Assembly: GCA_018714695.1 (NCBI GenBank)
Contig: DVNB01000108.1
Coordinates: 1-45,245 of the forward strand
Source: Candidatus Ornithomonoglobus merdipullorum
GTDB taxonomy: Bacteria > Bacillota > Clostridia > UBA1381
Length of the DNA: 45,245 nucleotides
Reading direction: 5' to 3'
Position numbers and translations under genes: made by a program. Below the pieces are notes generated by a model. The model saw only the letters and a program-made list of their open reading frames with translations. It was not told the origin of the DNA and made no database searches. Of the stretch, positions 4,831 through 44,881 are shown in pieces; position 1 is the stretch's first letter; each line of letters begins with the position of its first letter.

Positions 4831-4910
4831 TACGGTTCCTCCTTGATCTCAGGTTTGTTTCTCTATATTTATATTCGATGAGGACCGAAATAGAACGAGA
4901 TTTATTACAT

Positions 4911-4950
4911 AAAAAAAGCACCCCCTGCCATTAAGGCTTGATCGAGGTGC
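4911..4950 (-). terminator. Terminator of the candidate RNA, 80 bp before spoIVA
   Basis: On the minus strand GCACCTC (4950-4944) pairs with GGGGTGC (4924-4918), including one G-U pair. An inner GCC/GGC pair is possible in the loop. Seven T residues (4917-4911) follow. It would stop transcription before spoIVA unless it acts as an attenuator. Confidence 0.72.
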
Positions 4951-5272
4951 AGCGCGGTTAATTTGAATACCCTGAACAGGAAGCCCGAACGGCATAGTCC
5001 CTTAAACACCATCCGCGTATGTCAGACACACTATGTATGCCGGACATATTCCTTCTCATGCCCTTGGGGGATATATAGGCAAATGTGAGATCGCCGGACT
5101 TCCTTTTCCGGATGCTCAACATATGACCGCGCGATCCGCTTCCTTGTATTTATAACGAACAGATCTCTTTCTATAAAAATTTTCAGCTTTTCCGCTAAAT
5201 TGATAATTTTTTATCATTAAAAAGATTTATTTATTCAAAGCGAACCTTTTGTTGAATACTATTTAACAATTA
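4911..5272 (-). ncRNA. Candidate structured RNA (about 360 nt) upstream of spoIVA, family unknown
   Basis: A consensus minus-strand promoter (5279-5307) and a minus-strand terminator (4911-4950) bound this stretch, which has no reading frame of note. Visible pairing on the minus strand includes CCGGA-loop-TCCGG near 5100-5117, and CGGCATA near 5040 pairing with TATGCCG near 4995. It could be a stand-alone RNA or a leader that attenuates before spoIVA. I looked for marks of 6S, tmRNA, RNase P, SRP, T-box and cobalamin elements and found none convincing. The boundaries are inferred from promoter and terminator only. Confidence 0.5.
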
Positions 5273-5278
5273 TTATAT

Positions 5279-5307
5279 ATTATATAATAAAATATTTCTG
5301 TTGTCAA
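5279..5307 (-). promoter_or_regulatory. Consensus sigma-A promoter of the candidate RNA
   Basis: On the minus strand TTGACA (5307-5302) and TATAAT (5284-5279) are separated by 17 bp. Both hexamers match consensus, so transcription is expected to be strong. The -35 lies about 50 bp upstream of the divergent regulator gene. A plus-strand TATAAT at 5283-5288 overlaps this -10, so the two directions may share one regulatory region. Confidence 0.85.
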
Positions 5308-5355
5308 CAGCTATTTATGAATAATTTGTTAACTAATAATGAAAGGAAATATATT

Positions 5356-5613
5356 ATGTTCAAACTTAAAGCACCGGACGGTACCAATAACATCTGCGGA
5401 AAGCGGATTAAGGAGCTTAGGCTCGGAATGGATCTGTCGCAGCGCAGACTTGCGGTAAAGCTCCAGCTCCTCGGCTATGACGTTGATAATTTCTTTATAA
5501 GGCGCGTTGAAAACGGAGAACGTTTTATTACCGATATAGAGCTACAGATGTTCAGCCGTGTCTTTAACGTCCCTGTAAATGAGCTGTTTCCCGCGTCTCA
5601 TGCCAGAACATGA
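5356..5613 (+). CDS. Small XRE-family helix-turn-helix regulator
   Basis: The 85-residue protein is essentially one Cro/C1-type HTH domain: GKRIKELRLGMDLSQRRLAVK forms the first helices (quoted to show the LSQRRLA turn), then a recognition region around IRRVENGERFITDIEL and the end RVFNVPVNELF. It lacks a ligand or dimerisation domain. I chose ATG 5356, which has AAAGGA 8 nt upstream; an ATG at 5317 has no such site. It is divergent from the strong promoter of the candidate RNA and could regulate it or itself. Its target is not known. Confidence 0.82.
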   Translation: MFKLKAPDGTNNICGKRIKELRLGMDLSQRRLAVKLQLLGYDVDNFFIRRVENGERFITDIELQMFSRVFNVPVNELFPASHART

Positions 5614-5640
5614 GCGCGGGTCCGGCATCTTTTAAATAAA

Positions 5641-5672
5641 AACACCGGGCATTTCATAATATACCCGATGTT
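5641..5672 (-). terminator. adhE terminator, possibly shared with the XRE gene
   Basis: On the minus strand AACATCGGGT pairs with GCCCGGTGTT over 10 bp (two G-U pairs) with a 12-nt AT-rich loop, followed by a T-rich run. On the plus strand the stem has two mismatches but is followed by TATATTTTTT, so partial use by the convergent regulator gene is possible. Confidence 0.72.
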
Positions 5673-5684
5673 GTATATTTTTTA

Positions 5685-8300
5685 TCAAACGGCATCGCCG
5701 TTATAAGCTTTTATCATTAATTCTTTGATCTCCTCAACAAGCGGAAGTCTCGGATTTGCCGTTGTACACTGATCCTCGAACGCCTTGTTCGCTATATCGT
5801 CAAGCTTATCCATATACTCCTTCTCACTTATTCCGCACTCTGCAAAAGATCTTGGCATACTGCACTCATCCTTGAGCTTCATAACTGCGTTTATAAGGTT
5901 ATCTACGCTCTCCTCTGTTGTCTTTCCTCCGAAGCCGCATGCATGAGCGATCTCTGCATACTTCTTATCGGCAATAAAGCTCTTGTACTTCGGCCATGAA
6001 ACGAACTTCGTCGGCGTCTGACTGTTATACTTTATAACATACGGAAGCAGGACCGCATTTGCACGGCCGTGCGGTACATGATACTCTCCGCCTATCTTAT
6101 GAGCGATAGAGTGGTTTACGCCAAGGAACGCGTTCGTGAATGCCATACCCGCAATACAGCTTGCGTTATGCATCTTCTCTCTCGCCTCTCTGTCGTCTGC
6201 ACCGTTGTTATAAGCTCTGGGCAGATACTCAAATACAAGCTGGCATGCCTTTATAGCAAGAGCATCCGTATAATCCGATGCCATTACAGAAACATATGCC
6301 TCAATAGCATGTGTCAATACATCCAGACCTGTATCCGCGGTCGGCGCCTTCGGCAGCGACAGTACGAACTGCGGATCGATTATCGCAATGTCCGGTGTCA
6401 GCTCGTAATCCGCTAGCGGATACTTCATATTGTTCTTCTTGTCGGAAATTACGGCGAACGACGTTACCTCCGAGCCTGTTCCCGATGTAGTCGGAATAGC
6501 CACAAGCTTAGCCTTTACACCCATCTTCGGGAACTTGAACGCACGCTTTCTTATATCAAGGAATCTGAGACGAAGTCCCTCAAAATCAGCGTCGGGATGC
6601 TCATAATATACCCACATTCCCTTTGCCGCATCCATAGCGCTTCCGCCGCCGAGAGCGATTATAACGTCCGGCTTGAACTTCTCCATCATAGCCGCGCCCT
6701 TTTCTACTGTATCGAATGACGGATCCGGCTCAACATCAGAGAATATCTCGCAGTGTACATGATTCGCACGCTTTCTGAGATAATAAAGTATCTTATCCAC
6801 ATAACCGAGCGTTACCATCCCCGGATCGGTAACTATGAATGCCCTTGTTATATCGGGCATCTTCTCGAGATACTGTATCGAATCATACTCAAAATAGATC
6901 TTATCCGGTACCTTGAACCACTGCATATTAATTCTCCTTTTGGCAACTCTCTTCTGATTTATAAGGTTCACCGTCGATACGTTGCCGCTGACGCTGTTTC
7001 CGCCGTAGCTTCCGCAGCCTAGTGTCAGTGACGGCATATTTGTATTATACAAATCACCTATAGCTCCGTGCGATGACGGTGAATTTACTATAAGACGGCT
7101 TGCCTTCATTACCGATGCGAATTTCTCTATAACGTCCTTATCCTGCGCATGGATCACCGCGCTGTGTCCCATACCGTTAAAGAGCACCATCTGCTCAGCA
7201 AGGTCAATACCCTGATCCTCATTTTCTGCTATCATATATCCGAGCACAGGGCTGAGCTTTTCGCGCGAAAGCGGATGATCCGGTCCCACACCGCCGATAC
7301 GGCATACAAGTATTTTAGTTGTCTTCGGAACGTTCTTAAGTCCTGCATGCTCTGCGATCCACGCTGCCGACTTACCTACTATATCCGGATTTACCGCGCC
7401 TTTTTCACTGTTTATGCAGTAATCGGAGAGGATCTTTACCTCATCCTCCGTCGCAAAATAGCAGCCGCCTTTCTTCATGAGCTTCTCGAACTCGTCCGAG
7501 ATCTCCTTGTCGACTATTGCCGCCTGCTCCGACGCACAGATCATTCCGTTGTCGAACGACTTTGAAAGAATGAGATCGTTTACCGCCTGGAGAAGATCTG
7601 CCGACTTATGGATATAACACGGCACATTTCCGGGACCAACGCCGAGCGCCGGTTTACCTGTGGAATATGCAGCCTTGACCATGCCGCTTCCTCCCGTAGC
7701 AAGCACCGTTGCAACACCCGGATGGTTCATAAGCGCATTTGTAGCTTCTATAGACGGATACTCGATCCACTGTATGCAGTTTTCCGGAGCCCCTGCCTTT
7801 ACAGCCGCGTCATAGACCGTCTTTGCCGCCGCGACCGAGCACTGCTGTGCCGCCGGGTGGAAACCGAATATTATCGGATTTCTTGACTTTATCGAGATGA
7901 GCGACTTAAAGAGCGTTGTGGATGTCGGGTTAGTAACGGGAGTAACTCCGCAGATTATTCCCACCGGTTCCGCTATTATCTCATAGTCCTCAAGCTCGTT
8001 TTCGGCTATAACACCTACCGTCTTTTCATTTTTTATCGAATGATAAATATATTCAGTAGCGAACATATTCTTTGTTATCTTGTCCTCATATATGCCTCTG
8101 CCTGTCTCGTCTACAGCAAGCTTTGCAAGCTCCATATGCTTATCGAGCCCTGCAAGAGTCATCGCTTTGACGATCTTGTCTATCTGCTCCTGATCCATCG
8201 ACATAAATTCATGGAGAGCCTTCTGAGCCTTTTTCACATATCCGTCGATCATTTCATTTACGTTGATCTCAGGTTTTGCAGATTCGTTCTTCTTTGCCAT
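5685..8300 (-). CDS. adhE: Bifunctional acetaldehyde-CoA / alcohol dehydrogenase
   Basis: AdhE reduces acetyl-CoA to acetaldehyde and then ethanol, regenerating NAD+ in fermentation, and usually forms helical spirosomes. The 871-residue length is typical. The N-terminal aldehyde dehydrogenase half carries the nucleotide-binding ATGGSGMVKAAYSTGKP stretch and the catalytic Cys in NGMICASEQ. The C-terminal half is an iron-dependent alcohol dehydrogenase with GGGSAMDAAK and the metal-binding NHSIAHKIGGEYHVPHGR. AGGAGG lies 8 nt before ATG 8300, which fixes the start over an upstream TTG. It has its own promoter with a leader near 147 nt, a Rex-like site at the -35 and its own terminator, so it is monocistronic. 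It sits between gpsA and spoIVA. Confidence 0.97.
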   Translation of the reverse strand: MAKKNESAKPEINVNEMIDGYVKKAQKALHEFMSMDQEQIDKIVKAMTLAGLDKHMELAKLAVDETGRGIYEDKITKNMFATEYIYHSIKNEKTVGVIAENELEDYEIIAEPVGIICGVTPVTNPTSTTLFKSLISIKSRNPIIFGFHPAAQQCSVAAAKTVYDAAVKAGAPENCIQWIEYPSIEATNALMNHPGVATVLATGGSGMVKAAYSTGKPALGVGPGNVPCYIHKSADLLQAVNDLILSKSFDNGMICASEQAAIVDKEISDEFEKLMKKGGCYFATEDEVKILSDYCINSEKGAVNPDIVGKSAAWIAEHAGLKNVPKTTKILVCRIGGVGPDHPLSREKLSPVLGYMIAENEDQGIDLAEQMVLFNGMGHSAVIHAQDKDVIEKFASVMKASRLIVNSPSSHGAIGDLYNTNMPSLTLGCGSYGGNSVSGNVSTVNLINQKRVAKRRINMQWFKVPDKIYFEYDSIQYLEKMPDITRAFIVTDPGMVTLGYVDKILYYLRKRANHVHCEIFSDVEPDPSFDTVEKGAAMMEKFKPDVIIALGGGSAMDAAKGMWVYYEHPDADFEGLRLRFLDIRKRAFKFPKMGVKAKLVAIPTTSGTGSEVTSFAVISDKKNNMKYPLADYELTPDIAIIDPQFVLSLPKAPTADTGLDVLTHAIEAYVSVMASDYTDALAIKACQLVFEYLPRAYNNGADDREAREKMHNASCIAGMAFTNAFLGVNHSIAHKIGGEYHVPHGRANAVLLPYVIKYNSQTPTKFVSWPKYKSFIADKKYAEIAHACGFGGKTTEESVDNLINAVMKLKDECSMPRSFAECGISEKEYMDKLDDIANKAFEDQCTTANPRLPLVEEIKELMIKAYNGDAV

Positions 8301-8453
8301 AATCAAAATCCTCCTAAACAGCGTAAAAATTTGATTTATTTAAACAGCAGAGCTGATAAAGCATCTCCGCCGATAATCTTTGCCGCACTATAGTTTATGC
8401 TTTATTTCAAATATCTATCCTCGTTTGCAGCTCTTATCCTCAGCTCCTAGAAC

Positions 8454-8482
8454 ATTATAATACATCGTTATTAATTTGTCAA
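8454..8482 (-). promoter_or_regulatory. Sigma-A promoter of adhE
   Basis: On the minus strand TTGACA (8482-8477) and TATAAT (8459-8454) are separated by 17 bp. Initiation near 8447 gives a leader of about 147 nt. In the rest of 8301-8659 I see AT-rich DNA and the gpsA terminator, nothing else. Confidence 0.85.
8465..8482 (-). promoter_or_regulatory. Possible Rex operator overlapping the adhE -35
   Basis: The minus-strand bases TTGACAAATTAATAACGA resemble the Rex consensus TTGTTAA-N4-TTAACAA at 10 of 14 fixed positions and overlap the -35 element. Rex senses NADH/NAD+ and is known to repress adhE in Clostridia. The match is imperfect and the region is AT-rich, so this is a hypothesis. Confidence 0.35.
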
Positions 8483-8613
8483 TATAATTTTCTCATTTTC
8501 TACATTTTTTATAAATTGATCTATATTTAACCGGCTTGTTCGTTATTTTTTTGTCAGAATGCACGAAATATACCTGCAAAGGTAAATTTTTATTAAAATT
8601 GGTGTAAAATAAT

Positions 8614-8656
8614 AAAAGCAGCGCGTCCGACATTTTCTGTCTTCCGCTCTGCTTTA
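8614..8656 (-). terminator. Terminator of the der-plsY-gpsA operon
   Basis: On the minus strand AAAGCAG (8655-8649) pairs with CTGCTTT (8621-8615), the stem continues with GCG/CGC after a bulge, and a T-rich tract follows. It lies just after the gpsA stop. Confidence 0.65.
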
Positions 8657-8659
8657 TAA

Positions 8660-9640
8660 TTACTCCACCGTTTTTCTCCGCGTCATAAGCATGTTTACCG
8701 CTTCTCTGGGATCCATCCCTTCAAACAGTATCTTATACGCATGCTCTATGATTGGGGTCTCAACATTATATTTCCTGCTGAGATTATACGCCGCTCCCGC
8801 GGTATTTACTCCCTCGACGACCATATGAACCTTTTCCAAAGTGTCCTCCAGCGTCATACCGCTGCCTATGAGGCTGCCAGCCCTGTAATTGCGGGAAAGC
8901 TTGCTCGTTCCCGTAACTATGAGATCTCCAAGTCCCGAAAGGCCGGAAAATGTAGCAGGTCTGGCGTTCATCGCAGTACCGAGACGGGTTATCTCGGCAA
9001 GCCCTCTGGTTATCAGTGCCGCTTTGGTGTTGTCGCCGTAGCCCAGACCGTCGGATATCCCAGCGCAAAGTGCAATAACATTTTTAAGAGCGCCGCCGAG
9101 CTCTACTCCTATTATATCGTCGGACGTATATACCCGAAAAGTCGGACACATGAATGCGTCCTGCAAAAATTCCGCGGTTTCCTTCGACTCCGACGCCACA
9201 ACAACGGTCGTAGGAATGCCTCGGCTCACCTCCTCGGCATGCGATGGACCGCTCAGTACCGATATATCCGCCTCAGGTATCTCCGAGCGGTACACCTCAG
9301 AAAGCCTCAGCTCACCCTCAAGTCCCTTGGATATGTTCACGATCTTCTGACCCGGAACTATGTACGGAGCCATCTGCTTTGCAGTGGTGCGTGTTGCCGG
9401 CGACGGAGCAGCGGTCACTACTATCTCTGCTCCATTTATGCATTTCTCCATATCATGACTGCATACTATACTCTCCGGAAGCCTGACGCCCGGAAGAAAT
9501 TCCTTGTTCTCTCGATCCCTGTTAAGCCTGTCCGTTTCCTCCTGTATCCATGACCAAAGATACACGTCATTTCCTTTTCCGGCAAGAAGTACGGATATTG
9601 CAGTTCCCCATCCGCCGGAGCCTATAACGGCAATTTTCAT
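8660..9640 (-). CDS. gpsA: Glycerol-3-phosphate dehydrogenase [NAD(P)+]
   Basis: GpsA reduces dihydroxyacetone phosphate to sn-glycerol-3-phosphate, the backbone for phospholipids. The 326-residue protein begins MKIAVIGSGGWGTA, a Rossmann loop, and has the conserved VVTAAPSPATR, LSGPSHAEEV (catalytic region), ELGGALKNVIALCAGISDGL and TFSGLSGLGDLIVT motifs. ATG 9640 is preceded by GGGAG at 8 nt spacing; an in-frame extension further upstream has no motif or ribosome binding site. It is third in the der-plsY-gpsA operon, so its product feeds the acyltransferase encoded just upstream. Confidence 0.97.
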   Translation of the reverse strand: MKIAVIGSGGWGTAISVLLAGKGNDVYLWSWIQEETDRLNRDRENKEFLPGVRLPESIVCSHDMEKCINGAEIVVTAAPSPATRTTAKQMAPYIVPGQKIVNISKGLEGELRLSEVYRSEIPEADISVLSGPSHAEEVSRGIPTTVVVASESKETAEFLQDAFMCPTFRVYTSDDIIGVELGGALKNVIALCAGISDGLGYGDNTKAALITRGLAEITRLGTAMNARPATFSGLSGLGDLIVTGTSKLSRNYRAGSLIGSGMTLEDTLEKVHMVVEGVNTAGAAYNLSRKYNVETPIIEHAYKILFEGMDPREAVNMLMTRRKTVE

Positions 9641-9674
9641 CGCTTTCACTCCCTTAATCCAAATATATTCCGTC

Positions 9675-10307
9675 TCACTTTTTCTTGGCGCCGAGCTTGC
9701 TTTCCTCTCCCTTTGCAAGCCTTGCTATATTTCCGCGGTGCTTCCATACCAAAAGCGCCGCCACAGCTATCACACATGCGATCCCCACCGCGTTTCCGCG
9801 CAGATTTATCGTCTCAAGCACCGCAAAAAGCACCGCCGCTATTATCGAGCCCAGTGAGACATATCTCGTTGCCGCCATTATTATAAGCGCGACAGCAAGC
9901 ACTATGAGCGCCGTCTGCCAATTCCACATAAACAGGACTCCCAGTCCCGTTGCGACTCCCTTTCCGCCTCTGAACCCGAAAAACACCGGGAAGCAGTGCC
10001 CCGCACAGACTGCGAGACCGGCAAGGTATACGCACTGTTCATACGCGCCAAAAGCCACCGCTGCACGTGCGAGAAGCACCGCCGCAACGCCCTTTATTAT
10101 ATCTATCACGAGCGTTATAACAGCGTATTTCTTGCCCATAGTGCGAAGCATATTCGTAGCGCCTGCATTTCCTGAGCCGCTTTCACGTATATCCTTACCG
10201 CTGACAGCCTTTGATATAAGTATAGATGAATTTATACTGCCTATCAGATATGCCGCAATGACGCTCAAAACGGAAACTATTATCGGTACTATTATCGTTA
10301 CTGCCAT
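9675..10307 (-). CDS. plsY: Acyl-phosphate:glycerol-3-phosphate acyltransferase
   Basis: PlsY is an integral membrane enzyme that moves an acyl group from acyl-phosphate to glycerol-3-phosphate, giving lysophosphatidic acid. The 210-residue protein has several hydrophobic helices and the three conserved family loops: SGNAGATNMLRTMGKK, AGHCFPVFFGFRGGKGVATGLG and the C-terminal KHRGNIARLAKGEE. I prefer ATG 10307, with GGTGG about 5 nt upstream, over a TTG at 10328 that has no site. It follows der after 25 bp and precedes gpsA. Confidence 0.95.
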   Translation of the reverse strand: MAVTIIVPIIVSVLSVIAAYLIGSINSSILISKAVSGKDIRESGSGNAGATNMLRTMGKKYAVITLVIDIIKGVAAVLLARAAVAFGAYEQCVYLAGLAVCAGHCFPVFFGFRGGKGVATGLGVLFMWNWQTALIVLAVALIIMAATRYVSLGSIIAAVLFAVLETINLRGNAVGIACVIAVAALLVWKHRGNIARLAKGEESKLGAKKK

Positions 10308-10332
10308 TTGATCCACCAACCCTTTCAAATGC

Positions 10333-11658
10333 TTACTGATCTTTTTTCTTTCTCTCTCGTATTATAAAGCGTATCGGAGTTCCCTCAAATCCGAAATTCT
10401 CTCGTATCTGATTCTCTATAAACCTCAGATATGAAAAATGGAACAGCTCCTTATCATTTACAAACAATACAAAGGTCGGCGGCGCCACCGACGCCTGAGT
10501 ACCGTAGTATATACGCAGCCTTTTTCCCTTATCCGACGGCGGCTGCTGCTTGTTTACGGCTTCGTTCAATACATCATTCAGCATTCCGGTTGTGATCCTG
10601 CGCTTATGCTGCTCGTTTACCTTCTTGATCTCATCAAGCAGCTTTTCCACTCTCTGTCCAGTCTTTGCACTTATAAACATCATGGAGGCGTATGACATGA
10701 ACGCAAATACCTCTCTGAGTCTTCTTCGGAACTCGTTCATTGTCTTGTCGTTCTTCTCTACTATATCCCACTTGTTTATGACAAAAATACACGCCTTGCC
10801 CTGATTGTCAGCATATCCCGCTATCTTTGTGTCCTGCTCCGCCATACCTTCGGTCCCGTCTATCATTATCACACAGACGTCGCTTCGGTCTATCGCAGCG
10901 AGCGATCTTATGACACTATACCGCTCTACGCTTTCATCGACCTTGCCGCGCTTGCGCATACCGGCGGTGTCTATAAACAAGAACTTATCTCCGTTCTTCT
11001 CATAATGCGTATCTATCGCGTCGCGCGTCGTACCCGCCACATTTGAGACTATGACTCTTTCCTCGCCCATTATCTTGTTTATGAGCGAGGATTTTCCCGC
11101 ATTAGGTCTGCCTATCACAGCTACCTTGATCTCATCCTCATCCTCAGAAAGATCGGCATCTGCCGGAAACAGCTTAGTTATCTCGTCAAGCAGATCGCCT
11201 ATTCCCAATCCGTTTGCCGACGAGATAGCCACCGGATCTCCAAGACCCAGATTATAGAATTCATAGAACTCCATCGGCGGCTCTCCTATGTTATCCACCT
11301 TGTTTACGGCAAGCACTATCTTCTTCTTGGCCTTCATAAGCATCTGTGCCACCTCATGGTCGTTCGCCGTAACTCCATCCTTGACGTTTACCATCATTAC
11401 AACCACGTCCGCCATCTCTATGGCAAGCTGTGCCTGCTCACGCATCTTGGACAATATCTCATCCTTAGAATACGGCTCGATACCTCCGGTATCTATCAGC
11501 GTAAAATGCTTGTCGAGCCACGACACATCCGAATATATCCTGTCACGTGTAACTCCGGGGATGTCCTCCACTATGCTTATCCTCTCCCCTGAGATCTTAT
11601 TGAATAGAGTCGACTTCCCGACATTCGGTCTTCCGACTATCGCTACCAATGGCTTCAT
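10333..11658 (-). CDS. der: Ribosome biogenesis GTPase Der (EngA)
   Basis: Der is an essential GTPase with two tandem G domains that acts in assembly of the large ribosomal subunit. In the 441-residue protein the first G domain has GRPNVGKST near residue 9, DTGG and NKVD. The second, from about residue 177, has GRPNAGKSS, DTAGMRKRGKVDE and NKWD. The C-terminal KH-like domain ends in GTPIRFIIRERKKK. ATG 11658 has AGGAG 13 nt upstream; a TTG at 11670 sits against the Shine-Dalgarno element and is unlikely. It is first in an operon with plsY and gpsA, a gene order common in Firmicutes that usually continues into spoIVA. Confidence 0.97.
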   Translation of the reverse strand: MKPLVAIVGRPNVGKSTLFNKISGERISIVEDIPGVTRDRIYSDVSWLDKHFTLIDTGGIEPYSKDEILSKMREQAQLAIEMADVVVMMVNVKDGVTANDHEVAQMLMKAKKKIVLAVNKVDNIGEPPMEFYEFYNLGLGDPVAISSANGLGIGDLLDEITKLFPADADLSEDEDEIKVAVIGRPNAGKSSLINKIMGEERVIVSNVAGTTRDAIDTHYEKNGDKFLFIDTAGMRKRGKVDESVERYSVIRSLAAIDRSDVCVIMIDGTEGMAEQDTKIAGYADNQGKACIFVINKWDIVEKNDKTMNEFRRRLREVFAFMSYASMMFISAKTGQRVEKLLDEIKKVNEQHKRRITTGMLNDVLNEAVNKQQPPSDKGKRLRIYYGTQASVAPPTFVLFVNDKELFHFSYLRFIENQIRENFGFEGTPIRFIIRERKKKDQ

Positions 11659-11710
11659 GTATAAAAACAAGCTCCTTTCGAAATAATAACTCTTATGACT
11701 ATACAGGTAT

Positions 11711-11739
11711 ATTCTATCACAATATCACGAAATAATCAA
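11711..11739 (-). promoter_or_regulatory. Sigma-A promoter of der-plsY-gpsA
   Basis: On the minus strand TTGATT (11739-11734) and TAGAAT (11716-11711) are separated by 17 bp, about 50 bp before the der start. Confidence 0.7.
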
Positions 11740-11745
11740 GAAAAA

Positions 11746-11777
11746 AAGAGGAAATTATGCAATGATAATTTCCTCTT
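11746..11777 (-). terminator. secDF terminator
   Basis: AAGAGGAAATTAT and ATAATTTCCTCTT form a perfect 13-bp stem with a 6-nt loop, and on the minus strand a run of T residues follows. It separates secDF from der. Confidence 0.88.
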
Positions 11778-11791
11778 GGTAAAATTTGATA

Positions 11792-14050
11792 TTATTTTTT
11801 CTTTGATGTGTTTTTCTTCGCAGCTGCCGTCGCTTTTGACCTAGCCTCAGCTTCCTTCCATGAAGCCCAGTATGTGGCAGCTATGAATATCGATGTGTAC
11901 GCACCGACAACTATACCGATGATAAGCGGAAGTGCGAACTGCCTTATCGTCGCAACACCGAGGATGTAAATCATAACTATAGTTATAAGCGTCGTTATTG
12001 TTGAGCTTACCGTACGTCCCAATGTTTCATTGATGCTCCTGTCCGCCATTGCCGTGATAGCCTCGGAGCTTCTGCGGCTCTTCATATTCTCACGGACACG
12101 GTCGAATATGACGATCGTATTGTTTATACAATAACCTATAACTGTGAGCATTGCTGCGATAAACGTCGTGTTTAGCGCTATATTCGTTATTGTATATACG
12201 CTCGCCATGACAAGCACGTTAAGAGCCAGAGTAGCGACCGCCATGATCGCGCTGCGCCAGTCAAATCTTATTATGATGTATACGAGCATACACAGTATAG
12301 CAAGCAGGGTGTACGAAAGCGCCTTCTGCTGTACCTGCGCACCGAAGCTCGGCGATGTTGACTGAACGTTCAAAAGCGCTTCATCATTAAGCGAATATCT
12401 CTCCTGCAGTGCTGCAAATGCCGCTTCCTGATTGCTTTCGTTGCTTGTTCCGTCCTCGGATGCCGGGATCTTTATGATCGCGGTCTCACCTGCGGCACCT
12501 GACTTCTGCACGACAGGCTCAAGCCCTGTAGCATCATTTACAATGCTTGATATCTCATCATTGTCAAACTCTTGTCCGATCGCTACCTGCATTCTTGTTC
12601 CGCCCAAGAATTCAACGTCAAAATTGAATCCGCTGTGAACGAAATACATTACTACACCGACAACGACCACGAGCACCGGCAAAAGAAGGAACTGCAGTTT
12701 GTGTCTTGAAAACGCAAATTTCTTTCCTTCATCAGCATTTTCCGCTTTCTTGACATTATAGAACAGGCTCTTGTTTCTCACACCTATGTTTACAAGGTTC
12801 CTCATCAAGAACTTAGTTACAACGATAGCCGTGAACATAGAGAGGATAACACCTATGCCGAGTGTTGTTGCAAAGCCTGTTACTGTGCCTATGCCAGACA
12901 TATAGAGAACAACGCACGAGATTATCGTAGTTATGTTCGAGTCGATGATAGCCGAGAATGCCTTTGAGAAGCCCGCTTCAACGGATGCTCTTACGGTCTT
13001 GCCAAGCTTTAGCTCTTCCTTCATACGCTCGAATATGATACAGTCGGCATCTACCGCCATACCGATCGAAAGCACGATACCGGCGATACCGGACAGGCTC
13101 AGATTAACTCTGAATACACCCATTACAAGGCAGATAAGTCCCACATATATCAGCAGCGACAGATCTGCTATAAGACCCGGGAGCCTGTATCTTATTACCA
13201 TGAACAGCATTACGAGTATGATGCCTATACCTGCAGCCCAGAGACTCGTCGGCAGCGCGTCACGTCCGAGCTCTGCTCCGACAGTCTCCTGCGATATCTT
13301 TTTCATCTCAAACGGAAGGTTACCGGAATTTATCTGGTTTGCCAGTGTTGCCGCAGACTCGGCATCGAAATTACCGGTTATAACGCATGATGTGGAATCT
13401 ATCTTCTCCGAAACAAGCGGACTTGATACGACCTCTTCGTCCATTACTATCTTTATTATATTATTGGGCGATGACTGTGCAGCAGCCTTCTCAGTAGCAT
13501 CAGCGAACTTTCTCGCACCGTCTGCGGTAAACTCTACCTGAACATAATACTGCGGATTTGAATTCTCACTTGGCTGACCATAGATGCTCTGCGCAGATGC
13601 AACATCAGTCCCCTCAAGGACTACATTGTCCTGATAATCCCTGAACGTCAGCTTTGCGACCTCAGAAAGCAGCTCGACAGCAGCATCAGTCTGCTCCGTA
13701 GCGGACATCTCACCCGATCCCGTATCTGTGCCCGACGGGATCTCGATCGTTACTTGTCCGTTCTCTCCAACAGATATACGGGCCTCCGTATATCCGGCGC
13801 CGTTAAGACGCATCTCGTATACCGATCTTACCGAGTTCATTTCTTCCTCGGTAGGATTCTCGGCATCTGCCTGGAAGGTAATTACCGAACCGCCTGCAAG
13901 GTCTATACCCTGTCTGATACCGGTCTCACCGTCAAGCATACCGCCGTATGTAGCGCTTAACGAGCCCGGCAGACCGAAGATCGCAACAAGATTCAGCACT
14001 ACAGCCGCAGCGATAACAAGACAAAAAGTAACTATACTTCTTTTTCTCAT
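11792..14050 (-). CDS. secDF: Protein translocase subunit SecDF (fused)
   Basis: SecDF uses the proton gradient to help SecYEG export proteins. This 752-residue protein fuses SecD (to about residue 440) and SecF. The SecD part has an N-terminal membrane helix, GIDLAGGSVITF at about residues 48-59 (normally GLDLKGG), a periplasmic-type domain, and the membrane block with GMAVDADCIIFERMKEE. The SecF part begins near residue 460 with FNFDVEFLGGTRMQV and has a second block with IGYCINNTIVIFDRVREN. The C-terminus is Lys-rich. ATG 14050 has AAGGAA about 13 nt upstream; the in-frame upstream extension lacks family features. It has a promoter, a long structured leader and its own terminator. The SCIFF peptide genes that often sit near secDF in Clostridia are not visible. 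Confidence 0.96.
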   Translation of the reverse strand: MRKRSIVTFCLVIAAAVVLNLVAIFGLPGSLSATYGGMLDGETGIRQGIDLAGGSVITFQADAENPTEEEMNSVRSVYEMRLNGAGYTEARISVGENGQVTIEIPSGTDTGSGEMSATEQTDAAVELLSEVAKLTFRDYQDNVVLEGTDVASAQSIYGQPSENSNPQYYVQVEFTADGARKFADATEKAAAQSSPNNIIKIVMDEEVVSSPLVSEKIDSTSCVITGNFDAESAATLANQINSGNLPFEMKKISQETVGAELGRDALPTSLWAAGIGIILVMLFMVIRYRLPGLIADLSLLIYVGLICLVMGVFRVNLSLSGIAGIVLSIGMAVDADCIIFERMKEELKLGKTVRASVEAGFSKAFSAIIDSNITTIISCVVLYMSGIGTVTGFATTLGIGVILSMFTAIVVTKFLMRNLVNIGVRNKSLFYNVKKAENADEGKKFAFSRHKLQFLLLPVLVVVVGVVMYFVHSGFNFDVEFLGGTRMQVAIGQEFDNDEISSIVNDATGLEPVVQKSGAAGETAIIKIPASEDGTSNESNQEAAFAALQERYSLNDEALLNVQSTSPSFGAQVQQKALSYTLLAILCMLVYIIIRFDWRSAIMAVATLALNVLVMASVYTITNIALNTTFIAAMLTVIGYCINNTIVIFDRVRENMKSRRSSEAITAMADRSINETLGRTVSSTITTLITIVMIYILGVATIRQFALPLIIGIVVGAYTSIFIAATYWASWKEAEARSKATAAAKKNTSKKK

Positions 14051-14193
14051 TTGCGTTTTACATTCCTTTCTTTTTTCGGGCTTGCGCCGGACACATGAAA
14101 GCGCGGCAAAGCCGCGCCCCAAACCGACACAACGCAGGCAATAATCTGCCGGCCCTTTTTTTGACCCGTCTCAAAATCCGCTTCTCGCAGCAT
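14047..14193 (-). CDS. Candidate leader peptide upstream of secDF (48 codons)
   Basis: A minus-strand frame starting at ATG 14193 encodes 48 residues and stops as ATGA over the secDF start. It has a KKGRQ stretch followed by a short hydrophobic core (IIACVVSVWGAAL) and a basic tail, a signal-peptide-like layout. Arrest peptides such as VemP (upstream of secDF in Vibrio) and SecM have this general position and shape. Against it: GAAGG abuts the ATG with no spacing, the region is GC-rich and hairpin-forming, and no arrest motif is recognisable. Treat as speculative. Confidence 0.2.
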   Translation of the reverse strand: MLREADFETGQKKGRQIIACVVSVWGAALPRFHVSGASPKKERNVKRK

Positions 14194-14220
14194 CCTTCAC
14201 GAAAAACCTATTTTGAGACG
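14099..14220 (-). promoter_or_regulatory. Structured leader of secDF mRNA
   Basis: Two inverted repeats lie between the promoter and secDF. CGTCTCAAAAT (14167-14177) pairs perfectly with ATTTTGAGACG (14210-14220) across a 32-nt loop, and GCGCGGC pairs with GCCGCGC around 3 nt near 14100-14116. Neither is followed by a T-run on the minus strand, so they do not look like terminators. The leader is about 185 nt. A role in regulation is inferred from the structure only. Confidence 0.45.
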
Positions 14221-14240
14221 CGCCATTTCACATATAAGCT

Positions 14241-14269
14241 ATTATACAACTTATACGCATTTAAGTCAA
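14241..14269 (-). promoter_or_regulatory. Sigma-A promoter of secDF
   Basis: On the minus strand TTGACT (14269-14264) and TATAAT (14246-14241) are separated by 17 bp. Initiation near 14234 gives a leader of about 185 nt. Confidence 0.85.
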
Positions 14270-14336
14270 GACTTTTTTCTGCTTTGTTCACATTTTTGAA
14301 ACAATGTTGCTTGCATTGGCCATTGATAAGGCATAT

Positions 14337-40136: not shown

Positions 40137-40165
40137 TTGAATAAATGGGACCGCTGTGGTATAAT
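40137..40165 (+). promoter_or_regulatory. Sigma-A promoter of the Rpn-like gene
   Basis: TTGAAT (40137-40142) and TATAAT (40160-40165) are separated by 17 bp, divergent from the cbiL promoter about 60 bp away. Confidence 0.8.
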
Positions 40166-40199
40166 AGAACTACAAAGACTACACAGGAGAGAGCATATC

Positions 40200-41192
40200 A
40201 TGAAAGAATATACCGATACTGCAAAACGGATCATTGCCGCATCAGACGACCCAAAAAAAGATGCGCCAGCAAAGAGAGTGCTTATGAGCAAACTGATAAT
40301 AGCTCATATACTGAAGGACTATGTAGAAGAGTTTTATGATGTAAGCGTTGATGACATAATCAATAAATGCATAGAAAATGTGAGCTATGGAGAAGTCCCC
40401 GTTGATAATAACGCAGCACCGGAATTCATAAAGGGACTCGCAAACGAAGATAAATCGACCTCAGGTGATGACCTAATAACATATGACGTTCTTCTTGAGG
40501 TTGCCACCTTGCTCTCGGAGCAAATAGGAATCATCGTAAATGTAGAGCCTCATAACAGAGATAATGGTCGGCTTCCGTACAGTATCATAAACAGGGCAAG
40601 ATATTATGTTGCCAGATTGGTATCGGCTCAAAAGGGCAGATATTTTGTCAAATCTGATTATAACAGCATCCGAAAGGTGTATTCTATATGGATCATAATG
40701 ACTCCAAACGAAGGAAAGAATACTGTAACAAAATATGAAGAAACGCCCAAATGTATTGTCGGCAATTACACGGAGCCGAATTCTTCACCGCTTACATCAA
40801 TAATTATGATACGGCTCGGTAAGATAGAGGAATCCGCGGGAGCACTAAAAATTCTGAATATGCTTATGACAGCTATGAGCGCTGAAAAAAAGATAAAAAT
40901 GCTTGAGGACGAGGGTGTCAAAATGACACGCGAATTCAAAAAGGAGGTAGAAGATATGTGTGATTGGACAGAAGCATTTGCCGAAAGAGCTAGAGAAGAC
41001 GGCTGGGAACAAGGATTAGCTGAAGGCAGAGCTAAAGGCAGAGCTGAAGGCAGAGCTGAAGGCAAAGAAGAGGCTAAGCTCAGCGCTGTGCGCAATATAA
41101 TGCGTTCGCTCAATCTTGCGGCAGACAAGGCACTCACTGCCGTGGGCATACCCCAGGCAGAGTGGGACAATTATCTTCCACGGCTTACTTGA
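40200..41192 (+). CDS. Rpn-family / PD-(D/E)XK nuclease transposase-like protein
   Basis: This 330-residue protein resembles the PD-(D/E)XK family annotated as Rpn or putative transposase. The N-terminal half includes an LMSKLIIAHILKDYVEEF segment and SAQKGRYFVKSDYNSIRKVYSIWI (core YNSIRKVYSIWI), typical of the nuclease domain. The C-terminus has tandem EGRA-K-GRAEGRAEGK repeats followed by a helical end with a GIPQAEWD motif, a hallmark of the family. Members are multicopy in gut Clostridia; E. coli Rpn proteins are DNA endonucleases that promote recombination. ATG 40200 has AGGAGA 9 nt upstream. It is a monocistronic unit divergent from the corrinoid operon. Confidence 0.8.
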   Translation: MKEYTDTAKRIIAASDDPKKDAPAKRVLMSKLIIAHILKDYVEEFYDVSVDDIINKCIENVSYGEVPVDNNAAPEFIKGLANEDKSTSGDDLITYDVLLEVATLLSEQIGIIVNVEPHNRDNGRLPYSIINRARYYVARLVSAQKGRYFVKSDYNSIRKVYSIWIIMTPNEGKNTVTKYEETPKCIVGNYTEPNSSPLTSIIMIRLGKIEESAGALKILNMLMTAMSAEKKIKMLEDEGVKMTREFKKEVEDMCDWTEAFAERAREDGWEQGLAEGRAKGRAEGRAEGKEEAKLSAVRNIMRSLNLAADKALTAVGIPQAEWDNYLPRLT

Positions 41193-41426: not shown

Positions 41427-43991
41427 TTATACAAGACCTACTGCGCCAAGATACTGATAGATTATAGCAGCAGCCTGTGCTCTCGTTGCTGTAGCCTTCG
41501 GCTCAAACGTTGTAGCGGATGTACCGTTGATAACGCCTGCAGCATTAAGAGCTGATACATATGTCTTTGCATAATCTGCGATCTGTGCTTCATCAGCAAA
41601 TACTGTAGCTGTACCTGCCGGCAGCTTAGCAAGGTTGCCTGTTGCCTCAATTGCTCTGTAGAGCATTGCAGCCATCTGCTCACGCGTGATCGTAGCGTTC
41701 GGATCAAATGCTGTCTCCGATACACCGTTTACGATACCGTTAGCAGCCGCAGCCTGTACGTAACCGTAGAACCAGTCACTCGGACTTACGTCAACGAATG
41801 TCTGTGCAGCGTTCGGTGTTGCGCTGATACCGAATGTAGCGCAAACCATCTTAGCAAACTCGGCTCTTGTTACGCTAGCGTTCGGATCAAATATAGTATT
41901 CGAGCGTCCGTTAATGATACCTGCCGATACAAGGTAATTGATAGCAGGCTGAGCCCACTGTACCGAACCAAGGTCAGTAAAGTTGATGCCCGGTGTTACT
42001 ACACCTGTGCCGCCGTTCGGACGAGCTATACCGCCGCCTGCTGAGTTACCGTTGCCGGTTGAACCGCTGTTCGAGCTGCCGCCGCTGTTGCTGTTTGAAC
42101 CTGTTCTTGTAAATGTAGCGCTTACATCTGTGTCTCTGTTAACAGTTATAGTCTTCGGTGAAGATGTGCCGCTGATATCGCCGCCCCATCTTGAGAAGTC
42201 ATATCCGTTGTCAGCGATTGCTCTCAGTCTTACGCTTGTGCCTGCCGGAATCTCCTCTTCGATATCCTCATCATCAGTGTCAAGCGATACCGAGTTACCG
42301 TCTGCATCTGTATATGTGACAGTTATTGCACCGTGTGAAGGTGTATCAACAGTAAGAGTTACCATACCGTCTTCAGGCTCCTCTGTAGACTCAGGCGGAT
42401 ATACACCCTCATATGCAGGATAAACAGTCATAAGGTTCTCAGCTGCCTGCTCAGTAGTCTGATAAGCCGGTGAAGCTGTTACTGTTACGCCGTCCTTGAT
42501 AAGGAAGGTAAGATTGTCTATTACATCCTTCATGTCGCCGTCGCCGTAACCGTTTCTGTTGTAACCGTTGATAAGGTTGAAATACTCATCCTCTGTAAGC
42601 TGCTCACCGTTGTACTCTGCAACGAAGTCTTCGCCATACTCAGCTGCGCTGCTGCCGTTTGTTACATCAACAACTGCAGCTATGAGCGAACCGCCGTCCA
42701 TTGTATCCGGTACATCTACGAGTATGTCTGAGAACTTAACCTCATCGTCACCCTCAAACTCAGGCTCTGCTGTAGCTGTTGCTGACGGAGCCTCACTTGT
42801 TGTAGGTGCCTCTGACGAAACCGGAGTCGGATTTGCAAGTACTGTTACAGATGAAACCTCAAGTGTTCCAGCATCGACTGTCAACTTAGGATATGTGCCA
42901 TTATCTACATATGCAATCTCTGAACCAGAAGCAAGGTTACCTACCAAGTCTGACTGTAACTCTGATGCAAATGTTATTGTTATAGTTGCAAGCACATCTC
43001 CGTGAGTTGCAATGGTATGCGGATGGAACGGATCTGATCCATATCCATTGACCTTACATATTCCGTTATCATTGTTCTGTGTGCCAGCAAATGCACTTCC
43101 ACTATTTCTTACTGCTGTTACTGTATAATCGGGAACATTGTCACCAAAATCAATCATTGCAGTCCATGAAGTAATATTGTCAATACCTACAGCCTTGACA
43201 TCTATAACTGCAACAGTAGACGAACTTTCATCAGCTTTATAGTCAAATACTATACCCTCAGTAACTTCCTCTGTTGGCTGTTCTGTCTCAACGGGAGACG
43301 TCGTTCCAATCGGAATCGCTGTAGGTCTTGTTGTTACATACGGCGTTGCTACTGGAGCAGCTGTTTCAGTCGGTGCAGCTGTTTCAGTCGGTGCAACTGT
43401 TTCAGTCGGACCAGCCGTTTCAGTCGGACCAGCTGTTTCAGTTGGTGAAGGATTAGCTAAAATTGTATCCGATACTGCTGCAAGAGTACCTGCCTCAATC
43501 GTCAATTTCGGATATGTACCGTTATCCACATACGCAACCTCTGATCCAGTTGTCAAGGTTGCCGTAAGATCAGTTTCAAGTGGTTCTTCGAATGTAAGCG
43601 TTACAGTAGCTAAAACATCACCATGAGTAGCTACAACATGAGGATGGAACGGATCTGAACCATATCCATTAACCTTACATATTCCATTATCGTTATTCTG
43701 CGTGCCAGCAAATGCGCTTCCTGTATTTCTTACTGCGCTTACTGTATAGTTGGGAACATCATCTCCCAAATCTATCATCGCAGTCCATGAGGTAATATTA
43801 TCCACTTCTGCAGCCTTTATTTCAATCACAGCTGTTGTTGAATTACTATTACTCTCATCATAGTCAAGCACAATTCCCTGTGTAGCCGTACTCGTATCAT
43901 CAGCTGCACTAACTGACAACGCCCCGGTAAAAGCACTTGTCAGCATCGCTACCGAGCATACAAACGACACAAATTTCTTTGTTGCTTTCAT
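41427..43991 (-). CDS. Secreted scaffoldin-like protein: two cohesin-like modules plus three SLH domains
   Basis: This 854-residue protein is exported (signal peptide about 1-29, SVSA/AD) and probably held on the cell wall. Order: module 1 (38-171), a Pro-Thr-Glu linker (182-240), module 2 (245-380), a Pro/Ser linker, an unassigned acidic region (413-535), an InlB/Listeria-Bacteroides-type beta repeat (about 542-628, VRLRAIADNGYDFSRWGGD), a Gly/Ser/Asn linker, and three SLH domains (about 669-850; TRAEFAKM, TREQMAAML, TRAQAAAII). The two modules are about 75-80% identical and share SWTAMIDLGDDVPNYTV and GDVLATVTLTF, a beta-rich layout like cohesins; this is inference from pattern, not a search. 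ATG 43991 has AAGGGAG 5 nt upstream. It probably shares a transcript with the dockerin-like gene upstream. The DNA is more AT-rich than neighbouring genes. Confidence 0.75.
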   Translation of the reverse strand: MKATKKFVSFVCSVAMLTSAFTGALSVSAADDTSTATQGIVLDYDESNSNSTTAVIEIKAAEVDNITSWTAMIDLGDDVPNYTVSAVRNTGSAFAGTQNNDNGICKVNGYGSDPFHPHVVATHGDVLATVTLTFEEPLETDLTATLTTGSEVAYVDNGTYPKLTIEAGTLAAVSDTILANPSPTETAGPTETAGPTETVAPTETAAPTETAAPVATPYVTTRPTAIPIGTTSPVETEQPTEEVTEGIVFDYKADESSSTVAVIDVKAVGIDNITSWTAMIDFGDNVPDYTVTAVRNSGSAFAGTQNNDNGICKVNGYGSDPFHPHTIATHGDVLATITITFASELQSDLVGNLASGSEIAYVDNGTYPKLTVDAGTLEVSSVTVLANPTPVSSEAPTTSEAPSATATAEPEFEGDDEVKFSDILVDVPDTMDGGSLIAAVVDVTNGSSAAEYGEDFVAEYNGEQLTEDEYFNLINGYNRNGYGDGDMKDVIDNLTFLIKDGVTVTASPAYQTTEQAAENLMTVYPAYEGVYPPESTEEPEDGMVTLTVDTPSHGAITVTYTDADGNSVSLDTDDEDIEEEIPAGTSVRLRAIADNGYDFSRWGGDISGTSSPKTITVNRDTDVSATFTRTGSNSNSGGSSNSGSTGNGNSAGGGIARPNGGTGVVTPGINFTDLGSVQWAQPAINYLVSAGIINGRSNTIFDPNASVTRAEFAKMVCATFGISATPNAAQTFVDVSPSDWFYGYVQAAAANGIVNGVSETAFDPNATITREQMAAMLYRAIEATGNLAKLPAGTATVFADEAQIADYAKTYVSALNAAGVINGTSATTFEPKATATRAQAAAIIYQYLGAVGLV
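42852..43259 (-). repeat. Second copy of the duplicated cohesin-like module
   Basis: This segment matches 43479-43880 at an offset of about 621 bp (207 codons), roughly 85% at DNA level where I compared them. The most conserved part encodes SGSAFAGTQNNDNGICKVNG and the following GSDPFHPH. Confidence 0.8.
43357..43446 (-). repeat. Five tandem 18-bp repeats encoding the PTETAx/PTETxx linker
   Basis: The unit GCAGCTGTTTCAGTCGGT (plus strand) is repeated five times with few changes (starts 43357, 43375, 43393, 43411, 43429). Each encodes PTETAA or a variant (PTETAG, PTETVA). Such repeats can vary in number by slippage and would change the length of the linker between the two modules. Confidence 0.9.
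43479..43880 (-). repeat. First copy of the duplicated cohesin-like module
   Basis: It encodes residues 38-171 of the scaffoldin-like protein and pairs with 42852-43259. The level of divergence suggests an old duplication or partial homogenisation. Confidence 0.8.
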
Positions 43992-44038
43992 ATATACTCC
44001 CTTCATAAAACAATTATTAATATCTGATTAATTGCATT

Positions 44039-44069
44039 AGCGCAGAAACACATAACGAATTCCTGCGCT
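44039..44069 (-). other. Stem-loop between the dockerin-like and scaffoldin-like genes
   Basis: AGCGCAG (44039-44045) pairs with CTGCGCT (44063-44069) over 7 bp. On the minus strand it is not followed by a T-run, so it is unlikely to be an efficient terminator and could set the relative level of the two genes. I see no clear promoter between 43992 and 44091. Confidence 0.4.
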
Positions 44070-44091
44070 TTTGCATCAAATATTACCAAAC

Positions 44092-44751
44092 TTATTCTGC
44101 TTTAGCCTGTACCTGTATTTCTGTACTTACTAAATCATTGTAGCCCTGTGCTACATTTCCAACTTCAAAAGATGCAATCTTAGCAGCATCTGTTGATGTA
44201 GCATTATTATCCAAGTCAACATCGCCTATTTTTACAGTCTCAGCATCAATGCCAGATACAACTGTATACTCAGCACCAACTGCATCATTATAGCCTTCTG
44301 CTGTCATACCAACCTCTGCTGATGCAATCTTAGCAGCATCGGACGAAGTTGCCTTTTCATCATCATCTACATCGCCGATAACTATTGTTATATTTCCTGG
44401 CTCAACCGCACCTACTGTGAAAGTTGTTTTCTGCATTGATCCATCAGTACCGCCGATACGCACTTCATATGTACCGTCTGCCAAAGTTCCAACCGGAACA
44501 GAAGCAAATGATGTGCCATCGTCTTTCTGATCGATCTGCTCTACTACATCGCTAGCGTTGCTTGAATCCACTGTTACGCCCGCTTCATTAACTATCAAAA
44601 GAGTCTGTGAAGCACCTGTAGCTGTAACATCGCTGAGCGTTACAGTACCGTCGGCATAGTCTGCCGTCATCGCCATTGCTGAAGCTGTCATTGCCATCGA
44701 TGCAGCTGAAACTGCTGCGATCGCGAACAAAGTTTTAGATAATTTCTTCAT
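44092..44751 (-). CDS. Secreted protein with two dockerin-like calcium-loop repeats
   Basis: The 219-residue protein has a signal peptide (about 1-26, ending A-S-A-M-A) and an N-terminal beta-rich region (30-115) of unknown type. Two similar repeats follow: IGDVDDDEKATSSDAAKIAS (about 125-144) and IGDVDLDNNATSTDAAKIAS (about 175-194). Each has acidic residues at loop positions 1, 3, 5 and 12 (D-x-D-x-D-x6-D), as in the F-hand loops of type I dockerins. They lie 50 residues apart, wider than in classical dockerins. GGGG is 7 nt before ATG 44751, favouring it over ATG 44769. It has its own promoter and lies just upstream of the scaffoldin-like gene, suggesting that the two products bind each other; this is inference. 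Confidence 0.7.
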   Translation of the reverse strand: MKKLSKTLFAIAAVSAASMAMTASAMAMTADYADGTVTLSDVTATGASQTLLIVNEAGVTVDSSNASDVVEQIDQKDDGTSFASVPVGTLADGTYEVRIGGTDGSMQKTTFTVGAVEPGNITIVIGDVDDDEKATSSDAAKIASAEVGMTAEGYNDAVGAEYTVVSGIDAETVKIGDVDLDNNATSTDAAKIASFEVGNVAQGYNDLVSTEIQVQAKAE

Positions 44752-44852
44752 CTTCTTACCCCTTTTCATTAAAAAATATAAATTTGCTTGCTCTGCGCAT
44801 CGATAAAATTGCGGACCCTGATGCGCTCACAATGCTATATTCATATATCTAC

Positions 44853-44881
44853 ATTATAAACTACTTTAGTTCAAAATGCAA
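44853..44881 (-). promoter_or_regulatory. Sigma-A promoter of the dockerin-like/scaffoldin-like genes
   Basis: On the minus strand TTGCAT (44881-44876) and TATAAT (44858-44853) are separated by 17 bp. Initiation near 44846 gives a leader of about 95 nt. Confidence 0.75.

Follow-up and report, generated by a model that had tools for sequence, protein, structure and literature searches.

A candidate SLH anchor and dockerin client gene pair with a hypervariable recognition region in an uncultured member of the Clostridia

SLH anchoring scaffoldins are secreted proteins that combine SLH domains with at least one cohesin, as set out in PMC11557425. In the type II cohesin/X-dockerin attachment of Acetivibrio, the cohesins sit on an SLH protein and the partner carries a C-terminal dockerin behind another domain. 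Here we describe a gene pair of similar layout in a stretch of 45,245 nucleotides (the window) from Candidatus Ornithomonoglobus merdipullorum. The window forms contig C13 of an assembly of 124 contigs that totals 2.65 Mb and is 86% complete. One gene encodes a secreted protein with SLH domains and cohesin-like modules (the anchor) and the other a small secreted protein with a dockerin-like C-terminus (the client). Pfam SLH domains, a predicted cohesin fold and a signal peptide assigned by eye occur together on the anchor, and the best reading is that the locus works as SLH anchoring scaffoldins do, with a single dedicated client, and is not a cellulosome. The pair is likely to form a two-part surface assembly, in which an SLH anchor with two cohesins holds a dockerin client that is made in excess, and in which the recognition parts are private to the species and have been exchanged.

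Both ORFs (open reading frames) of a preliminary description of the window are present and lie on the minus strand, with the client ORF followed after an 85-base gap by the anchor ORF. The client gene occupies positions 44092..44751. Its ORF (225 aa) opens at 44769, but the start originally given, 44751, is likelier since the conserved GAAAAGGGGTAAGAAG precedes the ATG there. The anchor gene (41427..44006, 859 aa) probably starts at 43991 (MKATKK) rather than at 44006. The signal peptide of the client was, like that of the anchor, assigned by eye. Pfam confirmed three SLH domains (41460..41990, E 4.5e-41), by which the anchor would be held in the cell wall, presenting its two cohesins. It also revealed an InlB-type B-repeat (Flg_new_2; 42105..42320, E 3.4e-08), which the preliminary description had overlooked, as it had a strong intergenic hairpin (below). 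A middle domain (X/linker) of unknown type, defined by consensus and common to relatives, occupies 42372..42746 (44% mean identity within the genus).

The duplicated modules claimed for the anchor span approximately residues 38-178 (43473..43895) and 245-392 (42831..43274), and are 65% identical in the best self-alignment and 71% in a multiple alignment. Their silent sites differ by 0.65 at 65% protein identity, which indicates an old duplication and rules out a recent one. As had been proposed, the structure of module 1 was predicted and compared with known folds. The AlphaFold2 model (moderate confidence) retrieved cohesins in the first 45 of 50 rows of the VIA-align 2 structural comparison, which supports a nine-stranded jelly-roll cohesin fold. 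A profile of the modules matched PDB entries weakly, with only two hits, 8ajy_A and 4iu2_A, both named cell-wall anchoring protein, which we take to be ScaE cohesins. Pfam cohesins were found above cut-off in the partner proteins encoded at the same locus in three relatives (L051, L137 and L138), with a weaker match in L061. The cohesin identity first suggested from the window is supported by these three lines together.

In the client, an N-terminal domain (44398..44673) retrieved no useful relative in the PDB (best match E 0.51, unrelated names). It is followed by two dockerin halves, GDVDDDEKATSSDAAKIASAEVG (44308..44376) and GDVDLDNNATSTDAAKIASFEVG (44158..44226). The two loops claimed earlier lie in these halves (residues 132-154 and 182-204 in the numbering of the 225-aa ORF); each has the dockerin calcium-loop pattern (Asp/Asn at 1, 3 and 5, Asp at 12), with Asp at all four positions. 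The repeated stretches around the halves are 65% identical, with a silent difference of 0.66. Among 31 aligned clients, Dockerin_1 was matched by 22 at E 0.05 or better (best 2.8e-12). When compared with the PDB, the client-family profile found solved dockerins (ScaH dockerin, E 3.1e-11; endoglucanase dockerins; xylanase Y dockerin) and aligned with the X-dockerin chains 4wi0_B and 2b59_B, with chains named serine protease in the top two ranks. The dockerin identity of the client is thereby upheld at the level of the family. The proposed search with cohesin and dockerin profiles had a divided outcome: with Pfam and NCBIfam neither window protein showed a cohesin or dockerin above cut-off, while the family profile matched dockerins and cohesins were found in relatives. 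In PDB searches with single sequences, the anchor found mainly SLH proteins, and the client and an L051 module found nothing useful. If the dockerin functions as predicted, the client would be captured on either cohesin by its two-fold C-terminal dockerin, and its N-terminal domain would thereby be displayed on the surface.

The pair is widespread in the family. A search at E 0.001 found relatives of the client (P0002) in 34 of the 70 family genomes (42 matches, 41 of them read, G034:C53 being left out); ten of the 41 (L063, L064, L066, L070, L072 and L074-L078) have the client-type N-terminal domain without a dockerin by eye, often with another C-terminal part, and were dropped from the set. 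With the client profile at E 1e-8, 67 of the 95 genomes in the order gave a match, many matches covering the N-domain only or the dockerin only; G034 alone gave ten. With fifteen further profile matches read and weaker ones (e.g. G061:C64, G066:C23) unread, dockerin-bearing clients occur in at least 45 of 70 family genomes, plus L151 in another family of the order. Forty of these 45 clients are followed, 10-121 bases downstream on the same strand, by a gene whose product has a signal-like N-terminus; of the other five, four sit at contig ends (L043, L044, L058, L140) and one has no partner gene alongside (L062), so that adjacency holds in 40 of 41 judgeable loci. An artefact of a single assembly is ruled out, since 40 loci from separate genomes share this layout. 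Pfam was run on 37 of the 40 partners, of which 24 have SLH, three a cohesin above cut-off and one (L061) the weaker match; the remaining 16 of the 40 are shorter, and their cohesin identity is mostly by position alone. In a class sample of 391 genomes searched at E 1e-22, matches occurred in 18, 14 of this family and four outside the order. Five loci were read from those four: in L163 and L166 the product of the adjacent gene starts, by eye, with a cohesin-like module, L162 and L164 are followed by other genes, and L165 by none.

The recognition parts are hypervariable. Averaged over six species of the genus, identity reaches 0.63 in the SLH part, 0.66 in the client signal peptide and 0.52 in the client N-domain, compared with 0.29 in a module and, for five species, 0.33 in a dockerin half. 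In the genus set, modules from the same protein are nevertheless 0.81 alike, and dockerin halves from 44 clients are 0.73 alike within a client against 0.29 between clients; these half-pairs include L151, from outside the family, false first halves in L040 and L150, where one loop was seen, and pairs out of register in L052, L144 and L146, and none was obtained from L138 or L140. The gap between the two values is largest at dockerin columns 10, 18 and 14 (0.78, 0.73 and 0.72); the Asp columns 1 and 12, in contrast, are conserved between clients as well (0.73 and 0.89). According to PMC5141474, positions 11 and 12 are central to cohesin recognition by type II dockerins; by our own reading these, counted from the preceding Gly, would correspond to columns 10 and 11 when numbering starts at the first Asp. 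Strands 3, 5, 6 and 8 of the module model are 0.95 alike within a protein and 0.15 between proteins, as against 0.80 and 0.27 for the other strands (17 proteins); strands were numbered after the cohesin scheme by their order in the model, the strand permutation test treats positions as independent, and cross-genus alignments are uncertain in the middle, which may lower the values between proteins. The 8-3-6-5 sheet is described as the dockerin-binding face of cohesins in PMC5429695. The dockerin and the cohesin faces probably act as a lock and key private to the species, matched within a genome and different between species.

Close relatives were compared across this variable region (the island). 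The SLH parts of L142 and L144 are 95% identical with a silent difference of 0.16, whereas approximately 300 anchor residues after the signal peptide are 22% identical (silent difference 0.73), the dockerin regions are 34% identical, and silent sites inside the island are saturated (pS, the silent difference, 0.73-0.76). From the pre-SLH part onward, most of their downstream DNA is 91-94% identical. Between L141 and L144, identity is 91% across 4.7 kb on the upstream side and 87-91% from the SLH part onward. Nearer the client the upstream matches drop to 72-83%, and no match at E 1e-5 was found from the client N-domain or C-terminal part to the pre-SLH or SLH part. The window and L039 show the same gap, from just before the dockerin to after the second module, between flanks of 76% and 68%; in L139 and L141 the alignment takes in the client N-domain (79%) and the start region of the partner (83%) but not the bulk of the dockerin or the module cores. 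L141-L144 group together in the tree of SLH parts (support 99/100), while in the module tree each pairs with another species (L139, L057, L065 and L060; support 97/95, 88/86, 93/89 and 82/78), and the SLH clade is rejected (approximately unbiased test, p 4.2e-09; long branches were noted by the program). Of ten pairs with SLH identity of 0.75 or more, module and dockerin have both changed in nine and both been kept in one (L055/L069). Mean GC at third codon positions (GC3) is 0.32 in dockerins, 0.32 in modules and 0.43 in the SLH part, the modules being lower in 22 of 24 loci. We suggest that the recognition part is swapped by recombination on a conserved backbone of promoter, leader, client signal peptide and SLH part.

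Several observations weigh against this interpretation. The window modules have no Pfam cohesin match, and the only Pfam match of the window client is Dockerin_1 at E 1.6, below cut-off. In profile comparison with cohesins, window-type modules alone reached a weak 9% (controls 0.2-0.9%) and the genus set 20% (best control 4.8%), the modules of the whole family giving 81%; in this comparison the reference row L110 was misplaced and L111, L116 and L126 were skipped. Co-variation of dockerin and module beyond the relatedness of the SLH parts was not significant (partial Mantel 0.16, p 0.08). In the pairs joined by the module tree (L142/L057, L143/L065, L144/L060 and L139/L141) the dockerins are only 0.26-0.39 alike, so that dockerin and module may not have been transferred as one piece. 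Selection alone would be expected to keep module cores alike, but their silent sites are also more alike than those of the edges (pS 0.217 against 0.495, 17 proteins pooled; amino-acid change is lower still, at a ratio of 0.22 against 0.43), which points to gene conversion acting as well as selection. Further clients may also lie in the part that is absent from this 86% complete genome.

The alternatives were weighed against the same data. In a conventional anchoring scaffoldin, a known class according to PMC11557425, the cohesins would recruit dockerin enzymes encoded elsewhere and the small protein would be one of several clients; the genome does have another cohesin/dockerin locus, on contig C64. 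The proposed genome search, however, found its only dockerin above the Pfam cut-off there, beside cohesins of its own, and no second client-like protein. A docking site shared by many enzymes should moreover resist change from species to species, and we consider this explanation unlikely. It is also quite improbable that client and anchor do not bind each other at all, with the client docked to different cohesins of the organism and the anchor modules serving as adhesins that only share the cohesin fold. That binding of the two is a prediction, that Pfam cohesins are present at C64 and C45 of the same genome, and that the co-variation test was not significant would all agree with such a view; the adjacency in 40 of 41 judgeable loci, the concentration of variation on the dockerin-binding strands and the ten SLH-similar pairs, in which dockerin and module changed or stayed together, argue for mutual binding.

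Surface proteins often evolve fast, and the protein identities taken alone are compatible with plain drift of a weakly constrained surface pair, with no exchange of alleles and no selection for diversity. Drift does not account for silent sites that are saturated in the island of L142/L144 next to an SLH difference of 0.16, for the missing DNA match across the island between matching flanks, for the rejection of the SLH clade by the module tree, or for copies that stay alike within one protein, and we regard it as very unlikely. A two-part assembly with exchanged, species-private recognition is therefore preferred.

The preliminary description had reported a single visible promoter for both genes. 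A perfect -10 TATAAT (44853..44858) indeed lies within a promoter-leader block kept in relatives, and across genera a TATAAT was present within the interval searched in 32 of the 44 upstream stretches. The -35-like TTGCAT (44876..44881; TTGAAATTT in many relatives) is weak, and a generic promoter scan did not report the TATAAT at 44858-44853 and found no excess of promoters (3 against 3.9 expected). The 5' leader (44752..44847), with a short covarying hairpin and the ribosome-binding site GAAAAGGGGTAA, has 68% mean column identity in 23 chosen loci (23 of the 31 leaders found were used, longer or divergent ones being left out), and each of the four predicted pairs of its hairpin shows at least one double change. 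Between the genes lies the strong hairpin (44018..44085; minimum free energy -27.9, z -4.2). Hairpins with z of about -3 or lower occur in 14 of 24 SLH-type loci and 0 of 16 others (type assigned by Pfam; L148-L150, unscanned, counted as without SLH). Their stem sequences mostly differ, and the intergenic gaps are also longer in SLH-type loci, which leaves more room for hairpins. Intergenic stem-loops determine the proportions of cellulosome subunits in Clostridium cellulolyticum through selective RNA processing and stabilisation of the cip-cel operon (PMC4423207); ours are predicted from sequence. Both genes would be driven by one promoter, and by analogy the hairpin, in this and other loci, probably gives more client than anchor mRNA, so that it is reasonable to infer an excess of the client. 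Among window ORFs of at least 150 aa, the effective codon number is lowest for the anchor gene (40.4, followed by 41.1); this agrees with high expression without proving it, as the GC3 of the gene (0.35) also differs from most of the window.

The suggested non-cellulosomal assembly agrees with the gene content. No carbohydrate-active enzyme was seen beside the pair, as claimed (ORF lists were read; Pfam was run on the pair and the neighbouring 351-aa ORF), Pfam gave no enzyme domain in the client, described earlier as lacking a recognised catalytic domain, and the client is present in a single copy. A cellulosome was rejected because there are too few dockerins in the 86% complete genome, the one above cut-off being at another locus, and because of the client lacking a Pfam enzyme domain. 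That other locus (L152; C64:6000-25000, positions 4817-14325) encodes three proteins: one of 1934 aa with a dockerin at its end, one of 774 aa bearing three Pfam cohesins, and one of 415 aa that combines SLH with a cohesin-like part below cut-off. On C45 (L004, 1357-2358), a 333-aa secreted-looking protein has a Pfam cohesin and an N-terminal part that resembles Cu_amine_oxidN1 by eye; the L137 partner also combines Cu_amine_oxidN1 with a cohesin. In another genome (L155, G034:C90, 2643-7858), a 1381-aa protein ending in a dockerin by eye is directly followed by a 352-aa protein, which makes a further adjacent pair, with Pfam cohesins in both frames. The anchor had 68 matches at E 1 or better in its own genome, itself included, mostly to residues 670-855, which indicates very many SLH proteins in the organism. 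Among the relatives, L040 has a client with one calcium loop and an anchor with three modules, and L138 has shortened client loops although its anchor carries Pfam cohesins. The gene before the client often encodes a conserved protein of approximately 220 aa with membrane-like stretches by eye (L138, L145, L146 and others), preceded in some loci by an NlpC/P60-like gene. In the window, the 351-aa ORF (40137-41192, plus strand) faces the anchor gene and has EGRAEGRAEGK-type repeats and a PDDEXK_2 match below cut-off (E 0.045).

No such cohesin-dockerin pair was described in the title or opening of the abstract of the literature searched, in which subscription papers are mostly outside coverage. 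If binding is as predicted, the family offers a natural series of approximately 40 matched pairs of anchor and client, of which 24 use one SLH backbone, with specificity changed by natural exchange. They would allow a direct test of how cohesin-dockerin specificity evolves, with concerted change in two cohesins and two dockerin halves, would be a source of orthogonal pairs for protein assembly, and would make this a candidate variable surface locus in uncultured Clostridia. Tentatively, the client may be a coat component held by a private cohesin-dockerin lock and diversified and exchanged like a serotype locus under pressure from phage, host immunity or self-recognition, a proposal that we rate as possible and somewhat short of probable. 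If it is true, cohesin-dockerin pairing here serves surface identity and not enzyme assembly.

The S-layer cassette (slpA) of Clostridioides difficile is variable within a conserved setting, and it is this mode of variation that invites comparison. It encodes a single S-layer precursor with other anchor domains and neither cohesin nor dockerin, while our anchor matched SLH and the InlB-type repeat in Pfam and nothing of slpA type. The surface protein encoded by the cassette is reported to serve as a phage receptor. In the non-cellulosomal cohesin modules of Clostridium perfringens glycoside hydrolases (2jh2, 2vo8 and 2w1n), the cohesin is on an enzyme, as the entry titles of 2vo8 and 2w1n indicate, whereas here it would be on a wall anchor. 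The cell-wall anchoring cohesin ScaE of Ruminococcus flavefaciens is weakly matched by the modules, and its wall anchor and partners differ from those here. The Acetivibrio attachment shares the arrangement of domains, but the client described here is no scaffoldin and has no recognised enzyme domain, the two genes stand side by side, and the recognition parts are hypervariable.

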